From contig JANXUR010000075.1 of NCBI GenBank assembly GCA_025356095.1, forward strand, positions 1 through 64,000: a stretch of 64,000 nucleotides of DNA, given 5' to 3'. The position numbers and the translations under genes are program-made. This stretch comes from Acidobacteriaceae bacterium. Its GTDB lineage: Bacteria; Acidobacteriota; Terriglobia; Terriglobales; Acidobacteriaceae. Shown here one piece after another: positions 48,639 through 57,125 of the stretch; position 1 is the stretch's first letter; each line of letters starts with the position of its first letter. Below the pieces are notes generated by a model. It was not told where the DNA came from, ran no database searches, and saw only the letters and a list, made by a program, of their open reading frames with translations.

Positions 48639-48798
48639 GAAGTTTGACTCGGACCCCCGAGCGGGTGATGGCGATCATCTTGGACTTTGTGGCTGACGCC
48701 GACGGTACCAGAAATTGCCTTGCTTGTGGGGTGCCCCGCAGTGAAGAAAGTTCTTGCGCGCGGGCGTTCTTGGGATAGACTTTTTGCGTTGGACTCTA

Positions 48799-49455
48799 AT
48801 GATTGAAAATAGCTCGTGCTCGTCCCTCCCCGACGAGGCTTTGGTGAGACTGTGCGCCACCACGGATGATCCGCTGGCGTGGCGCGAGTTCCTGCGCCGT
48901 TTTACTCCGGTCATCTCCCGCCAAGTGGTCCGCTCCGGTTATGGGTGCCTAGTGGTGGAAAACGTGGAGGATTTGGTTCAGCAGGTGCTTGTCCGCCTCT
49001 GCTCCCGCGACCGCCGCGCGTTACGCGATTTTGATTTCCGCTATCCCGGCGGCATCTACGGCTACTTCAAGAAAGTCGCAACCACCGTGGTCAGGGACCA
49101 CCACAAACGGGAAGCCGCAGATAAACGTCCCAACAAGGACGGTGCCCAGTCGCTGGAGGACTTTGATGTCCCTGACAGCGCCGACCGCCGGGGCCATGCC
49201 GGCCACACCCACCGCCAGACGCTGCTACGGGAGCTGGAACCCTTCGTGCTGGATTGCGCCGGGAGCCGCAACCGCGAGCGCAATGTAACCATCTTCTGGC
49301 TACGCCACAATCAGGGCATGACAATGGCTGAGATCGCTACCCTGCACCGATTAGGGCTGAATGAAAAGGGAGTGGGGGCTCTGGTAGAGCGCATGGTGCG
49401 CTGTGTGCGCGAGAAGCTGGCGGGCGGCCGCGCTATGGCGGGGGTGTCCGGGTAA
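48799..49455 (+). CDS. ECF-like sigma-70 family factor
   Basis: A 218-aa sigma factor from MIENSSCSSLPDEAL; 15 codons open upstream are less likely. Region 2 is about residues 15-100 (ALVRLCATTDDPLAWREFLRRF, ENVEDLVQQVLVRL, GYFKKVATTVVRDHHKR). A long linker (KRPNKDGAQSLEDFDVPDS) separates it from region 4 (ERNVTIFWLRHNQGMTMAEIATLHRLGLNEKGV). Directs RNA polymerase to a special promoter set. The CHAT gene starts 46 nt downstream, so they share a transcript and regulation. Confidence 0.85.
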   Translation: MIENSSCSSLPDEALVRLCATTDDPLAWREFLRRFTPVISRQVVRSGYGCLVVENVEDLVQQVLVRLCSRDRRALRDFDFRYPGGIYGYFKKVATTVVRDHHKREAADKRPNKDGAQSLEDFDVPDSADRRGHAGHTHRQTLLRELEPFVLDCAGSRNRERNVTIFWLRHNQGMTMAEIATLHRLGLNEKGVGALVERMVRCVREKLAGGRAMAGVSG

Positions 49456-49501
49456 TGCAGCATTTTTGCCGGGGTTGTCGTTCTCAGAAGGGAGGACAGT
49501 C

Positions 49502-52500
49502 GTGAGGTCGCACCTTATACGTGACGAAATTGAGCTTCTGTTCTTTTCGGGCTTCGCTGTAGCTTCGCCAATTCCAGAGATGGAGTTGGCTGAGGCGCGG
49601 CGGCATTGGGAGGGCTGTCCGGACTGCCAGGAAGTGGTACGGCGGCATGAGGCATCAGCATCCCAACTGGCGCAACTGGCGCAGCCTGCGCTGCCGTCCG
49701 GAGAAGCTGGCCCGCACTGCCCGCCCGAGCCGGTTTGGGCCGGAGTAGTTGCGGGAACCGCCTCTAGGTCGGAGGAGGAAGCGTGGATGCTGCACGCGGC
49801 ACAATGCAGCCATTGCGGGCCAAGACTGCGCGAAGCGGTTCGCAGCGCTGCCGACACGCTCACGCCGGATGAGGAGGCACTGGTCTTGCAGCTACGAACG
49901 TCACAACCCGACTGGCAAGCCGACTTCGCCCGCACCCTCGCAGCCACGCCGCACGCCAGTGAGCGTCCGGGCTGGAAGAATTGGCTCTCGGTACCTCGGC
50001 TGACCTTGGCCGGGAGCCTAGCTGCTGCACTCGCGGTCGGCGGTTGGTTCGCCTTCCGCCAATGGCAAACGAATGACGTGGACCACCTGCTCGCCCAAGC
50101 CGCCGTAGAACGGCGCGTCACCGAAGGGCGCCTGCAAGGAGCAGACTTTGCCGAAATGAGACAGGATCGCGGCGGCGCTGTGCCGACACCCCAGTCCCTT
50201 CTGGAGGCAGAAGCCCGAATCGGCCGGGAGTTGCTGCAACACCCTGACGATCCACACTGGCTGCAGGCCAGAGCTCAAGCGGCAATGCTCGAAGGCAAGT
50301 GGGACGAGTCCTTGCACGATTTGCAGGAGGCTTTGGCATCTCAGCCCGACTCCCTCGAGCTGTTACGCGATCTTGGGACGGCTTACTATCAACGCGGACT
50401 GACAACGAAGAACAGTGCAGATATCGCCCAGTCCATGGATCTATTCGGAAAGGTGCTGGGCAAGTCCCCGGACGATCCAATCGCCCTCTTTAATCGAGCG
50501 ATCGCCGCTGAAGAACTACGGGAATACCAGCAAGAAATTGACGACCTCGAACACTACCTTCGCCTCGATAGCAGCAGCGGATGGGCGAAGGAGGCCCGCG
50601 CCCGTCTCGCGAGAATCAAGAACAGGGTCAAAGAGAAGCAAGAAGGTCTGGTTCGTCCACTGATGTCGCCGCCGACCCTCATCTCGAAGGCATCAAGCGA
50701 GGATGCTGAAAGCGAGCTGGAATCGCGGGTTGAGGCGTATGACCACGCGGCGCTTTCCAACTGGCTTCCTGTCGCATATCCGGTTGTGACGGTTGCTGCA
50801 CCATCTGACGGATCACAAGGGAGCGTCCGGCAGGCGCTGAAGCTGCTTGCGTCGGTCGGGGAGGTGCGTCACGGAGATCGGTGGCTGGGCGATCTGCTTG
50901 AGCATTCCCGTGACAAGCGATTCCCGCAGGCCGTGACAGCACTGGCGGAAGCAGTTCGAGCCGATGATCACGGTGACTATGCGGCAGGCCGGGCGCATGC
51001 GCGTGCGGCGGCGTCTTGGTTCGCTACCGACGGTAATCTTGCGGGAAAGCTACGGTCGTCCGAAGAAATGATTTACGCGGAGGGTCTTCTGTGGCAAAAC
51101 TGTGAGTCCCCGGCTGCTGCCTTGGACCTCGAGCTCGCCGACTCTGGGTATGCTTGGCTGGTGGCGCAAACCAAACTCGAGCTTTACAACTGCTCTGGTG
51201 TGAATGGACGCGACGGCCGAATGAAGGGTCTTCTCGATGCTGCCCGCAAGCAAGCCGAGTCGCACGGATACCCGTCATTGGGCCTAAGGGCACTCTACTT
51301 CCAGGCTGAGGAACTAGCAGATTCGGGAGACAGCACGACAGGCGTCGAGCTGGCCGAGGAGGGGCTCGCGACCTTCTGGAATAGCCAAGTGGACTTGATG
51401 CAGGGTTATAACTTGTACTCTTCCCTGGACACTGCGGCAGAGACCATGCAGCTCCGCCACTTCCAATTGGCGGTGTGGCGCGATGCCACCGCTTTGATTG
51501 ACATGCATCCAGATATTTTGCTGCGGGCGATGGCGCATTCCTGGTATTGCAAGGCGGCCTATTCGGCTCATGACGAAGTCACCGCCCGGAGAGAACTGGA
51601 TGCTGCCTCGGCCCTGTTCGCGTCCGCGCCCAAAAGTCAGTCCACGGTCCGTGATTGGGTGGATGCCGAAATCTGGCTGGCTCGGCAGGAGGCGCAGGAG
51701 GGTGACTACGAACGCGCCAGCGCCCGTCTGAAGCAGGTTTGGCCAGATCTTAAGCGAGAGAATGGATACGAACCGCAAATGAACTACTACTCCACCCTTG
51801 CCCGAGTAGGCGCAAGCCAGGTGGACTCAGTGAGCGCGGAGAATGCAGTGCGGGCTGCTGTCTTTTTGGCGGAGTGGAAGTTGCGCACAATCAACACGCC
51901 GAAAGCCCGCCAGCTTTGGGCCGAGCAGTCCGCCGGTGCTTACCTCGCTGCTGTCCAGCGGAGACTGGCACAGGGAGACACACAAGGCGCTCTGGAACTT
52001 TGGGAATGGTTTCGCGGCGCTGCATTCCGTGCCGGTGAGCGCGGGCGCCCCAGCGCAGACGCTGTGCCGGATGTTCGGCGGGCTCCCGCCTTGCCGCTGC
52101 TCACAGAAATCAGCGAAGCGGCACATCCCATGGACCACGAGACTGTCCTTAGCTACGCCACGCTGCCGGATGGAGTAGTGGTGTGGGAATTTGATGACCG
52201 TGGTGTGAACTTCCGGCGGATTCAGGAACCGGTAAACAGCGTCCGCGACAAGGCCCTAGCGTTTCACCGGCTGTGCGAAACGCGCAGCTCGTCGCTGGTG
52301 GCTGTGCAAACCGCCGCCAAGGCGCTCTATCGTGCGCTCATCGCGCCAGTGGAGGATCGCTTGGATTCCGCCCGGACGCTTGTGGTGGAGCAGGACGAAA
52401 CCACCGCTCCGATTCCTTTCGAGGCGCTAATGGATGCCCAGGGGCGGTACCTAGCCCAGCGGATTGTGGTGCGGGAAAGTCCCGGCGTCTACTTTGCCCG

Positions 52501-53134
52501 CCATGCGCGGCCATCGCGGGCGATCACCGAGGCTAGCCCTGCTCTGGTGGTAAGTGTGCACGCTCCGGCCGAGAAAGGCGTGATGCCCTTGGCGGACGCC
52601 GCGGCGGAAGCTGACTCGGTGGCCGCGCATTTCTCGGGGTCACGCCGTCTGGAGGACGCCCAGGCGACTCTCGCCGCCGTCCGCAGCCAGATGCATGGGC
52701 AGCAGGTCTTCCACTTTGCCGGGCACGCGGTGGCTTCCCCGAAGCGCACGGGGCTGCTGCTGGGCGAAAGCGAACCCTCGCGCGGTCGGGCTAAGTTGCT
52801 CGATGCGTCCAGCCTGCGCGCTGCTGACTTCGCCGACTTGCAATTGGCGGTGCTTTCCGCGTGCGACACACAGCCGCTGCCCACCACCGAACTGGCGGGC
52901 ACGGAGAGCCTGACCGACACATTCCTGCGCGGCGGCGTGCCCAATGTAGTGGCCAGCCGCTGGCAGGTGGATTCCACACAGACCGCAGAACTCATGCGGC
53001 AGTTTTACCAGCAGCTCGCCGGGGGCCAACGCCCGGCGGCGGCGCTGCACTCCGCCCAAGTGGCAATGGCGGCGCGGCCCCAGGCCGCGCATCCCTTCTA
53101 TTGGGCGGCTTTCGCCGTTCAAGGGGTGAATTGA
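49502..53134 (+). CDS. Anti-sigma-type zinc motifs, TM, TPR and CHAT (caspase-like) protease in one protein
   Basis: A 1210-aa protein. GTG 49502 is preceded by GGGAGG; the longer frame overlaps the sigma gene and is rejected. Two HxxxCxxC motifs (HWEGCPDC near 35-42 and HAAQCSHC near 98-105) are of the zf-HC2/ZAS anti-sigma type. One membrane helix follows at about 167-187 (AGSLAAALAVGGWFAF). Outside are TPR-like helices, then a C-terminal CHAT domain with LVVEQDETTAPIPFEALMD, catalytic His1075 (FHFAGHA) and Cys1121 (LSACDT), and SRWQVD. So the zinc motifs face the cytoplasm with the upstream sigma factor and the protease faces out. Inferred sensor; activation signal unknown. Confidence 0.85.
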   Translation: MRSHLIRDEIELLFFSGFAVASPIPEMELAEARRHWEGCPDCQEVVRRHEASASQLAQLAQPALPSGEAGPHCPPEPVWAGVVAGTASRSEEEAWMLHAAQCSHCGPRLREAVRSAADTLTPDEEALVLQLRTSQPDWQADFARTLAATPHASERPGWKNWLSVPRLTLAGSLAAALAVGGWFAFRQWQTNDVDHLLAQAAVERRVTEGRLQGADFAEMRQDRGGAVPTPQSLLEAEARIGRELLQHPDDPHWLQARAQAAMLEGKWDESLHDLQEALASQPDSLELLRDLGTAYYQRGLTTKNSADIAQSMDLFGKVLGKSPDDPIALFNRAIAAEELREYQQEIDDLEHYLRLDSSSGWAKEARARLARIKNRVKEKQEGLVRPLMSPPTLISKASSEDAESELESRVEAYDHAALSNWLPVAYPVVTVAAPSDGSQGSVRQALKLLASVGEVRHGDRWLGDLLEHSRDKRFPQAVTALAEAVRADDHGDYAAGRAHARAAASWFATDGNLAGKLRSSEEMIYAEGLLWQNCESPAAALDLELADSGYAWLVAQTKLELYNCSGVNGRDGRMKGLLDAARKQAESHGYPSLGLRALYFQAEELADSGDSTTGVELAEEGLATFWNSQVDLMQGYNLYSSLDTAAETMQLRHFQLAVWRDATALIDMHPDILLRAMAHSWYCKAAYSAHDEVTARRELDAASALFASAPKSQSTVRDWVDAEIWLARQEAQEGDYERASARLKQVWPDLKRENGYEPQMNYYSTLARVGASQVDSVSAENAVRAAVFLAEWKLRTINTPKARQLWAEQSAGAYLAAVQRRLAQGDTQGALELWEWFRGAAFRAGERGRPSADAVPDVRRAPALPLLTEISEAAHPMDHETVLSYATLPDGVVVWEFDDRGVNFRRIQEPVNSVRDKALAFHRLCETRSSSLVAVQTAAKALYRALIAPVEDRLDSARTLVVEQDETTAPIPFEALMDAQGRYLAQRIVVRESPGVYFARHARPSRAITEASPALVVSVHAPAEKGVMPLADAAAEADSVAAHFSGSRRLEDAQATLAAVRSQMHGQQVFHFAGHAVASPKRTGLLLGESEPSRGRAKLLDASSLRAADFADLQLAVLSACDTQPLPTTELAGTESLTDTFLRGGVPNVVASRWQVDSTQTAELMRQFYQQLAGGQRPAAALHSAQVAMAARPQAAHPFYWAAFAVQGVN

Positions 53135-54650: not shown

Positions 54651-57125
54651 ATGAACATGAAAGCTCAACTCACCCTCGCTCTGTGTGTCTTCGTCCTCTT
54701 GCTGGGCACGATGTCCGCCCAGACCAGCCGCAAGCCTTCAGCGAAGCATGCGGCATCAGCCAGCCCCACCGCGACCGGGACCACCGACAAGACAGACAAG
54801 ACCGACAAGACCGATAAGACCGATAAGACAGACAAAAAGCCGTCGCAAGCCATCAACGGCAAGATTGTGGATGCCGTCACTAACGCATATGCCGCCCCGG
54901 ACGACCACCTGCTGTGCGAATTTACCCTGCCGCAGTTGCTCGAACTGCAACCAATACGAGGCGTCGCGTACCTCACCGAGGCGGATGATAGCCGGATCAA
55001 GACCGAGGTAATCCGCAGCATCAATTCCCCCGAAAACAGCGATGGCATGAGCTCGGATCAGATTCAACTGTTCATAGATGCTATCCAGAAGCTGGATCTT
55101 GCCGGGCGGACCCCGGGACAGGGTCTCGCGGCCATCATGCAGACGCTGTACCGCGCTCAGTTGGACGCTACCAAAGAGGTGGCGAAGAAAAAGGTGGATT
55201 CGATTCCCGGGTTGGCGGCTGAGAACAGCAGCTACAAGGCGGAGATCGACTCGGCAAAGACGCGGCAGGTGGTTCAGGCGATCATGGGCGAGGCCGCCCA
55301 AAAGAGTCGTGATAACAAAGCTGGGTTAGGAGAAACTGCGGCTGCCTCGGCAGAAGCCGCAGCTGCGTCAGCGGAATCCGCGGTAAGCAACACCATCTCT
55401 CAGGCCACAAGTCTGTCGAGCGCCGTCTCCAAGTCGGCCCGCGGGGCCGTCAGTGCACTGGTGAAGCCGCTCGACGTGGGCTGCTCATTCCAGATTCTGA
55501 CCTGGCAGGACACCCGGCTCACCTTTGGCCGCAGCGTGGCGGATCACTTTATCGCCGTGCAATTCACGGTGCGCAACGTGAACGACAAGGAGGAATTCAT
55601 CGTCCACGACGCTCAGGTGCAGGTGAATCACGACATCAACAAGTCGCTTGGCCGTTACTTTGCTGGCGTGGATAAGGTGCACATTGAAGCCTTCAACAAC
55701 GCCGGCGAAGCTCTGACCAAGCGGGGAATCGCAACAAACATTCTGTCGGCGGCGGGAGCGATGCTCAGTACGCTCCAACCGATTGTGGTGGTGGACAATT
55801 TCAGCAACGCGGTGGCCGCGTTCAACGGAGGCGCTCTGCCCGGGTTCAAGAACACGGTGCAGGACCACCAGAAAGACCAACTGCTCGCCATTGCCAACAA
55901 CGGATTCTCCGCCACCAGCACCTTCAAGACCGTGGTAAGCAAGTCGGGCTCCGCCACGTTCTACACCTGGATTCCGGTGGAGCAGCTTCTGGAAGGATGG
56001 TGGGTTCAGGACTGCGCCCGGAAGTTGATACTCCCAGGTGCTCCGCGGCAGGGGCAGACCGTTGGTCTCGATATCGCCCGCGCTCAGCAAGTCTGCAACG
56101 ACCTCACGCCGGAAACTCTAACCAAGGTCGAGTACCGGCAGTGGTCGCCAACCGCGCAACAGATCTTTCGCGATCTCACACACGGTGTGATTGCGGGCAT
56201 CCACGTGCGGGAAGACTCCAAGAATCAGATCTCCATGACCGACCTCAAGTGCCCGGTTACGCCGACGGGCGAGATTGACTTCACCCACGCGGTCAACGGG
56301 GCCATCAGTTGCGATGCCGCGGGCCAGAACCTAGACAAGGTGAAGAGCGTGCAGTTCATCAATGCCGACAACGATGTTGACCCCGCGGTGGGCACGGGCA
56401 CGGTGAGCGTCCATGGCGACAATACTGCCGCCACCGTCGAGTTCATGGTGGCGCAGCTCTCTGGCTTGACCGGAACCGCGTATAACGTGTTCGCGATAGC
56501 CACGGACGGAACTCAAACCGCAACCGGGCTCAAGGTGCACCTCGGCTCCGGCGCGAGCTTGAACAGTCCGCAGAACCTGACGCTCGACTTGGCCAGCCCT
56601 GACAAGGTGGTGTTGGCGGGGCGCAACCTCAACACCTTGGACAAGGTCTGCTTGGTGCTTGATAAGGCTAGCGACACGGTGAGCGTGACCAAGGACTCTG
56701 CGACGCAAGCTTCGCTGGCAGAGGCGGATTTGGTTACCGCCAAGCTGACGGTGGGCAAGTGGGGAGTTTATGCCGGCGCGTGCCCGACGACGGCGACAGA
56801 TAGCAAGGTGGTGATCGAAGTAACCACGTCGGCTCCGGTGATCAAGAGCCTTTCCGAAGCTAACGCCAAAGTGGGCGATTCTATAAAGATTCAAGGCATC
56901 AATTTGGCTGTGGTGACGAAGGTGACCTTCGGAGGGCAGGCGTCGGCAAGTCCAACGGCTGTGACCTCAACTGAGGTGGACGTGGAGGTGCCGACCGGTG
57001 CGAACAACGGTGCTCTGACGGTCTCGGGATCAGGCGGAACTTCGGCACCGTCGGCCAAGGAATTGACGGTGACGCAGGCTGCTGCAACACCAAAGAAGCC
57101 CAAGACTCGGAAGGATAAGCATTAG
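54651..57125 (+). CDS. Large secreted protein with TDK repeats and C-terminal TIG/IPT-like domain
   Basis: An 824-aa protein. Signal peptide MNMKAQLTLALCVFVLLLGTMSA. Then a low-complexity TDK tract (six units, encoded by 9-nt repeats at about 54781-54837), a helical region, an Ala/Ser-rich segment, a beta domain around the FQILTWQDTRLTFGRSVADHF block, and at the end one TIG/IPT-like Ig domain (APVIKSLSEANAKVGDSIKIQG) with a basic tail. Cys are few. Placed last in the sigma/CHAT cluster after a 220-nt spacer. Function unknown; surface adhesion or envelope scaffold is plausible. Confidence 0.75.
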   Translation: MNMKAQLTLALCVFVLLLGTMSAQTSRKPSAKHAASASPTATGTTDKTDKTDKTDKTDKTDKKPSQAINGKIVDAVTNAYAAPDDHLLCEFTLPQLLELQPIRGVAYLTEADDSRIKTEVIRSINSPENSDGMSSDQIQLFIDAIQKLDLAGRTPGQGLAAIMQTLYRAQLDATKEVAKKKVDSIPGLAAENSSYKAEIDSAKTRQVVQAIMGEAAQKSRDNKAGLGETAAASAEAAAASAESAVSNTISQATSLSSAVSKSARGAVSALVKPLDVGCSFQILTWQDTRLTFGRSVADHFIAVQFTVRNVNDKEEFIVHDAQVQVNHDINKSLGRYFAGVDKVHIEAFNNAGEALTKRGIATNILSAAGAMLSTLQPIVVVDNFSNAVAAFNGGALPGFKNTVQDHQKDQLLAIANNGFSATSTFKTVVSKSGSATFYTWIPVEQLLEGWWVQDCARKLILPGAPRQGQTVGLDIARAQQVCNDLTPETLTKVEYRQWSPTAQQIFRDLTHGVIAGIHVREDSKNQISMTDLKCPVTPTGEIDFTHAVNGAISCDAAGQNLDKVKSVQFINADNDVDPAVGTGTVSVHGDNTAATVEFMVAQLSGLTGTAYNVFAIATDGTQTATGLKVHLGSGASLNSPQNLTLDLASPDKVVLAGRNLNTLDKVCLVLDKASDTVSVTKDSATQASLAEADLVTAKLTVGKWGVYAGACPTTATDSKVVIEVTTSAPVIKSLSEANAKVGDSIKIQGINLAVVTKVTFGGQASASPTAVTSTEVDVEVPTGANNGALTVSGSGGTSAPSAKELTVTQAAATPKKPKTRKDKH

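Follow-up and report, generated by a model that had tools for sequence, protein, structure and literature searches.

The locus lies in a 64,000-nucleotide stretch of an Acidobacteriaceae genome (contig JANXUR010000075.1), referred to here as the window. It comprises a sigma factor gene, a large anti-sigma gene, and a third gene, all on the forward strand, with the following features.

48799–49455, + strand: P0001, ECF-type sigma factor gene, 218 aa
49490–49496, + strand: GGGAGGA, a good ribosome-binding site for the anti-sigma gene, read from the sequence
49502–53134, + strand: P0002, DdvA-like anti-sigma gene, 1210 aa, with two zinc anti-sigma (ZAS) domains, a transmembrane (TM) helix, TPRs, and CHAT, in the order ZAS-ZAS-TM-TPR-CHAT
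49604–49627, + strand: first zinc motif, H35xxxC39xxC42
49718–49828, + strand: second zinc domain, with C73, H98, C102, and C105
50006–50071, + strand: transmembrane helix, residues 169–190
50084–50173, + strand: juxtamembrane segment, residues 195–224, candidate cleavage or docking site
50192–52021, + strand: TPR superhelix, residues 231–840
52310–53125, + strand: CHAT caspase-like protease domain, residues 937–1208
52724–52726, + strand: His1075 codon
52862–52864, + strand: Cys1121 codon
53174–54430, + strand: P0003, third module gene (GPFA family), 418 aa, with a Sec-type signal

An initial annotation of this DNA had placed a sigma gene 46 nt before a gene for a 1210-aa protein, and the boundaries of both genes hold, with P0002 beginning at a GTG codon at 49502. 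On sequence grounds, P0001 is a divergent ECF sigma factor, a short protein made up of region 2 and region 4. Its residues 28–207 match TIGR02937 at 5.6e-8, below the model cut-off, and a profile of the P0001 family matches solved ECF sigma factors (the sigma-E/sigma-H structures) at 4.3e-6 over most of their length. The resemblance of P0001 to general sigma factor models is weak. A search for the classic ECF promoter (GGAAC...GTC) 5′ of the sigma genes did not find it. A promoter-like block, TGTAnAATCC, recurs in many related loci, divergent ones among them, some 25 to 45 nt 5′ of the sigma start, and the copy in the window, at 48772–48781, reads GGGATAGACT. This block looks like a −10 element, unlike the classic ECF promoter.

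The N-terminal part of P0002 contains both of the HxxxCxxC motifs reported initially, H35xxxC39xxC42 and H98xxxC102xxC105. The first is kept in 42 of the 52 relatives that have this stretch. In the second zinc domain, C73, H98, C102, and C105 are invariant across the 63–64 rows that have the stretch, as well as in all 44 rows of alignment A7. HxxxCxxC together with a fourth ligand upstream, the pattern by which ZAS domains are recognized, is therefore present in P0002, supporting the assignment of a zinc anti-sigma domain. The zinc domain of P0002 itself has no match to Pfam zf-HC2 (PF13490), which counts against the anti-sigma reading; with an E threshold of 0.5, the same model detects 27 of 44 relatives, the strongest at 2.5e-6.

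A single membrane helix follows, as had been proposed: the sole hydrophobic helix of P0002 has its Kyte-Doolittle peak near residue 167 and is modeled by AlphaFold at about residues 169–190. Just beyond it, residues 195–224 show the highest conservation of any 30-residue window in P0002, with R205 conserved at 97% and R210 at 99%, although a window within CHAT (residues 1140–1169) practically equals it in conservation. The TPR superhelix is supported by Pfam TPR matches from about residue 250 onward and by the AlphaFold model, and the C-terminal domain matches CHAT (PF12770) with E = 6.9e-53. The dyad His1075/Cys1121, reported as intact in the initial annotation, is so in P0002 and occurs in 67 of 67 intact close relatives as well as in 20 of 20 distant ones; the sole exception, at locus L134, has an apparent frameshift. 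The AlphaFold model of residues 11–1210 is confident, having a mean pLDDT of 88.5 and a pTM of 0.82, with the linker after the second ZAS domain poorly predicted. Two further cysteines, C534 and C564, occur in every one of 68 sequences and would suit a disulphide. Residues 1154–1158 (window 52961–52975) read WxVDS, with the serine present in 63 of 68 sequences, whereas other CHAT proteins often have WxV[DN]D; this difference may alter substrate preference.

Several indirect lines suggest that the CHAT part of P0002 is outside the cytoplasm. In close homologues of the ZAS-ZAS-TM part at loci L049, L050, L054, and L055, a domain with a CxxCH haem-c motif replaces TPR-CHAT, and c-type haem motifs of this kind are filled only outside the cytoplasm. 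The free-standing TPR-CHAT proteins of split loci (L036, L142, and L233) have N-terminal membrane anchors. Together, the haem-type variants and the anchored split proteins would place the TPR-CHAT side outside the cytoplasm. The distant TPR-CHAT proteins of L239 and L241 carry lipobox-like sequences, and the charges flanking the helix are biased in the same sense, albeit weakly, the N-terminal flank being richer in Lys and Arg in 42 of 66 sequences. The haem-type genes (L049:4467-5567, L050:4683-5786, L054:4880-6094, and L055:1259-2383) encode short proteins that end in CMVCH and are paired with related sigma genes.

The sigma gene is found directly upstream, on the same strand, in 63 of 64 full-length fused loci of the Acidobacteriota, where the order is sigma gene and then ZAS-TM-TPR-CHAT gene, so the pairing is not a matter of chance, and the gene pair is conserved in other genomes. 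In the analysis of domains, membrane helix, and gene order, no outcome arose that the initial annotation had named as refuting its reading. Distances among the sigma factors correlate with those among the anti-sigma factors (Mantel r 0.83, n 57), a correlation to which shared ancestry contributes. Relatives of P0002 at E ≤ 1e-60 occur in 77 of 398 genomes and 18 of 79 genera of the window's own family, Acidobacteriaceae, and an even draw across the phylum found relatives at 1e-90 in 30 of 396 genomes. Named relatives come from Acidobacteriaceae, Candidatus Sulfotelmatobacter, Candidatus Angelobacter, and Silvibacterium, and a named isolate, Granulicella aggregans, is represented by locus L193. 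Scanning contigs with P0002 alone returned zero relatives, whereas the TPR alignment as query recovered them.

Among 80 neighbor proteins of related loci, most are housekeeping proteins and no defence-island setting was found, and PADLOC gave no match for P0001–P0004, the four proteins checked for defence and type III-E CRISPR components (Cas7-11, Csx30). The only other CHAT gene of the same genome, at L053 (contig 6, 24000–40000), is convergent to genes for an HxxxCxxC membrane protein and an ECF sigma factor (Sigma70_r2, 1.8e-18). Other exported CHAT proteins, at L045, L046, and L047, have an apparent PDZ-like N terminus, and those of L045 and L047 adjoin sigma-like and anti-sigma-like genes.

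The initial annotation ended the unit at 53134, overlooking both a conserved third gene and the gene that takes its place in some loci. P0003 (53174–54430) also belongs to the module, so the unit extends past that point. P0003 has no match in Pfam, and its relatives follow the anti-sigma gene in 56 of the 64 fused loci. They share a pattern near the N terminus, hxVxhxGP(F/W)A...P....H, along with LPxP, LxY, and a late cysteine; from this motif, we coined the name GPFA for what, judging from the sequences, is a previously undescribed family. Among the GPFA matches listed at E ≤ 0.001 in the 396 phylum genomes, each lies directly beside an anti-sigma/CHAT gene. Fold searches with a GPFA model (mean pLDDT 62, pTM 0.62) gave no confident match (best E 2.7, best Z 3.8). 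By eye, about two thirds of GPFA proteins have a Sec, Tat, or lipoprotein export signal, and about one third have none visible.

Six of the eight fused loci that do not have GPFA carry a convergent clostripain-like (C11) gene at that position. These loci (L132, L136, L137, L138, L141, and L143) form one clade of the tree; the Peptidase_C11 match was confirmed in the three of the six that were tested (best E 1.1e-27), and the C11 proteins that we read have no evident export signal at their start. The split loci L036 and L142 keep GPFA with the CHAT gene, apart from the sigma/anti-sigma pair, and look like fissions because they are nested within the tree of fused loci, which has a midpoint root only. 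The next gene, P0004, was considered as a module member and rejected, its homologue being found in one locus only, L161. P0004 (window 54651–57125) encodes an exported protein of 824 aa that carries a (DKT)n repeat early in its sequence, and the L161 homologue (4.2e-49) lies beside a sigma and ZAS-TPR pair.

Twenty further loci from the phylum, more distantly related (L223–L242), combine the TM-TPR-CHAT body with a zinc domain, with a zinc-less N-terminal domain, or with neither. The zinc-less domain (xYLLG...EDELIDDY) is seen in the DdvA-like proteins of L224, L226–L229, L231, L232, L234, and L236, each after a sigma-like gene. In all ten distant loci tested, the upstream gene matches sigma factor models, and in nearly all distant loci a gene for a protein of about 240–330 aa lies downstream. 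These third genes resemble GPFA in size, position, and N-terminal pattern. In a GPFA search, the third gene outscored all other ORFs in 6 of 18 loci, E-values ranging between 0.15 and 120, and hhalign compared the two groups at E 0.012 with a probability of 3.6%; kinship with GPFA is suggestive only.

A Foldseek search with the P0002 model returned DdvA, titled "transmembrane anti-sigma factor," as its first two matches (8rw5, E 2.8e-18). DdvA is also the best match over the whole length of the fold: VIA-align superposes 842–866 residues of P0002 and DdvA with Z about 23, and a profile alignment has histidine and cysteine kept in DdvA at the dyad positions. We identified the 991-aa PDB chain as DdvA from its zinc segment, which is identical to that of the 90-aa DdvA entry, and from the entry titles, which describe a cryo-EM structure of a dimeric transmembrane anti-sigma factor. 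According to PMC12288465, which cites NAR 2018 gky475 and Sci Adv 2024 eadp1053 on this pair, DdvS controls a defence island of the CBASS/CRISPR kind and has DdvA as its transmembrane anti-sigma factor. The DdvA/DdvS pair of Myxococcus xanthus (PDB 8rot, 8rw5, and 8rlz) thus has the same plan as P0002: a zinc anti-sigma domain, one TM helix, an outer part ending in CHAT, and a cognate ECF sigma factor. The two proteins differ in that identity is 16–17% and that one zinc motif is matched in DdvA and two in P0002; the P0002 locus also differs in its conserved GPFA or C11 neighbor and in that no defence island was seen nearby. With ZAS, one TM helix, and TPR-CHAT predicted in one chain and an ECF sigma gene adjacent, P0002 would belong to the DdvA-like class on both sequence and model. 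The initial annotation knew of related pairings and of no described mechanism, a view that holds only in part, since DdvA, already known, is a transmembrane anti-sigma factor that ends in CHAT.

Other systems share parts of this design. Csx29, the TPR-CHAT protein of type III-E CRISPR, has the same TPR-CHAT fold (Z about 23–30), and it cleaves a separate protein, Csx30 (PMC10028731). The Csx29/Csx30/CASP-sigma system couples a CHAT protease to the release of an ECF-type sigma factor, as we propose for P0002. There, however, protease and anti-sigma factor are two different proteins, and Cas7-11 together with target RNA acts as the switch (PMC10028731), whereas P0002 unites both in one membrane protein. 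Membrane anti-sigma factors of the RseA/RsiW type likewise adjoin their sigma factors, and the RsiW zinc motif matches the P0002 family profile weakly (E 0.2). Site-1 cleavage of RseA is performed by another protein, DegS (PMC10028731); unlike RseA, P0002 contains a protease domain. Separase also joins TPRs to a caspase-like protease fold (Z about 20–28) but is a eukaryotic protease of cohesin, unconnected with sigma factors.

Taken as a whole, P0001–P0003 probably form a DdvA-type signaling operon in which P0002 serves as anti-sigma factor and sensor. The cytoplasmic zinc domain or domains of P0002 would hold the P0001 sigma factor at the inner membrane, one helix would span the membrane, and the TPR superhelix and CHAT would occupy the periplasm, where they would act as a sensor and a latent cysteine protease. 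A signal, with P0003 or a ligand of P0003 as leading candidate, would activate the CHAT unit, and P0002 would then be cut at or near the juxtamembrane segment 195–224, in cis or within a dimer. Release of the sigma factor would be completed by RseP-type and cytoplasmic proteases; the genome does have genes for M50 site-2 proteases, which nearly all bacteria possess. That sigma gene and CHAT gene are instead unrelated neighbors is extremely improbable given how consistently the pair is kept, and we found no evidence in favor of it.

The step that invites most discussion is the one assigned to CHAT, whose role as the site-1 protease of P0002 we rate at slightly below an even chance. The unbroken His/Cys dyad indicates that the protease matters, and a site-1 cut would need to lie in the conserved stretch that adjoins the membrane on its outer side; together, they favor regulated proteolysis over the two other roles that CHAT might have. 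It might act as a conformational sensor only, a ligand moving the TPR-CHAT dimer and the helix relaying this so that the sigma factor is freed without self-cleavage or by other proteases. Such a role would agree with the nearest relative, DdvA, being a structurally characterized dimeric transmembrane anti-sigma factor, and the haem-type variants, in which the same anti-sigma framework bears a domain that is not a protease, indicate that the outer part can serve purely as a sensor. A pure sensor would, however, be expected to lose the dyad in some lineages, which neither the close nor the distant relatives have done, and we regard this role as rather unlikely. Alternatively, CHAT might target another protein, for instance GPFA or the C11 protease that one clade has instead, with the anti-sigma part reporting the state of the reaction or supplying more components. 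The regular position of GPFA after the gene, its retention with the CHAT gene rather than with the sigma/anti-sigma pair in the two split loci, the C11-like gene in its place in six loci, and the cleavage of separate Csx30 by Csx29, which is similar in fold (PMC10028731), all speak for such a target. Many GPFA proteins, and the C11 proteins read, are without an evident export signal, however, and so may not meet a periplasmic CHAT; we regard a separate target as likewise rather unlikely. The same GPFA proteins without a visible signal do not suit a purely periplasmic partner in the self-cleavage scheme either. The fully specified version of that scheme, a self-cleaving caspase-type switch in which periplasmic CHAT, gated by GPFA, cuts its own dimer near R205/R210 and frees the sigma factor, we consider doubtful in that exact form.

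The DdvA architecture was known before; what is new is the GPFA partner family and the spread of the module through the phylum. A single solved structure is thereby extended to a widespread class in the Acidobacteriota, in which the protease dyad is invariant, a third gene is shared, and a C11 variant occurs, and within the DdvA-like class the outer and anti-sigma modules are exchangeable. The question of whether a built-in extracytoplasmic caspase-like protease controls transcription by cutting the anti-sigma factor becomes testable. A soil bacterium of the Acidobacteriota may hold a switch with its protease built in, and dozens of relatives keep the pair and the third protein.
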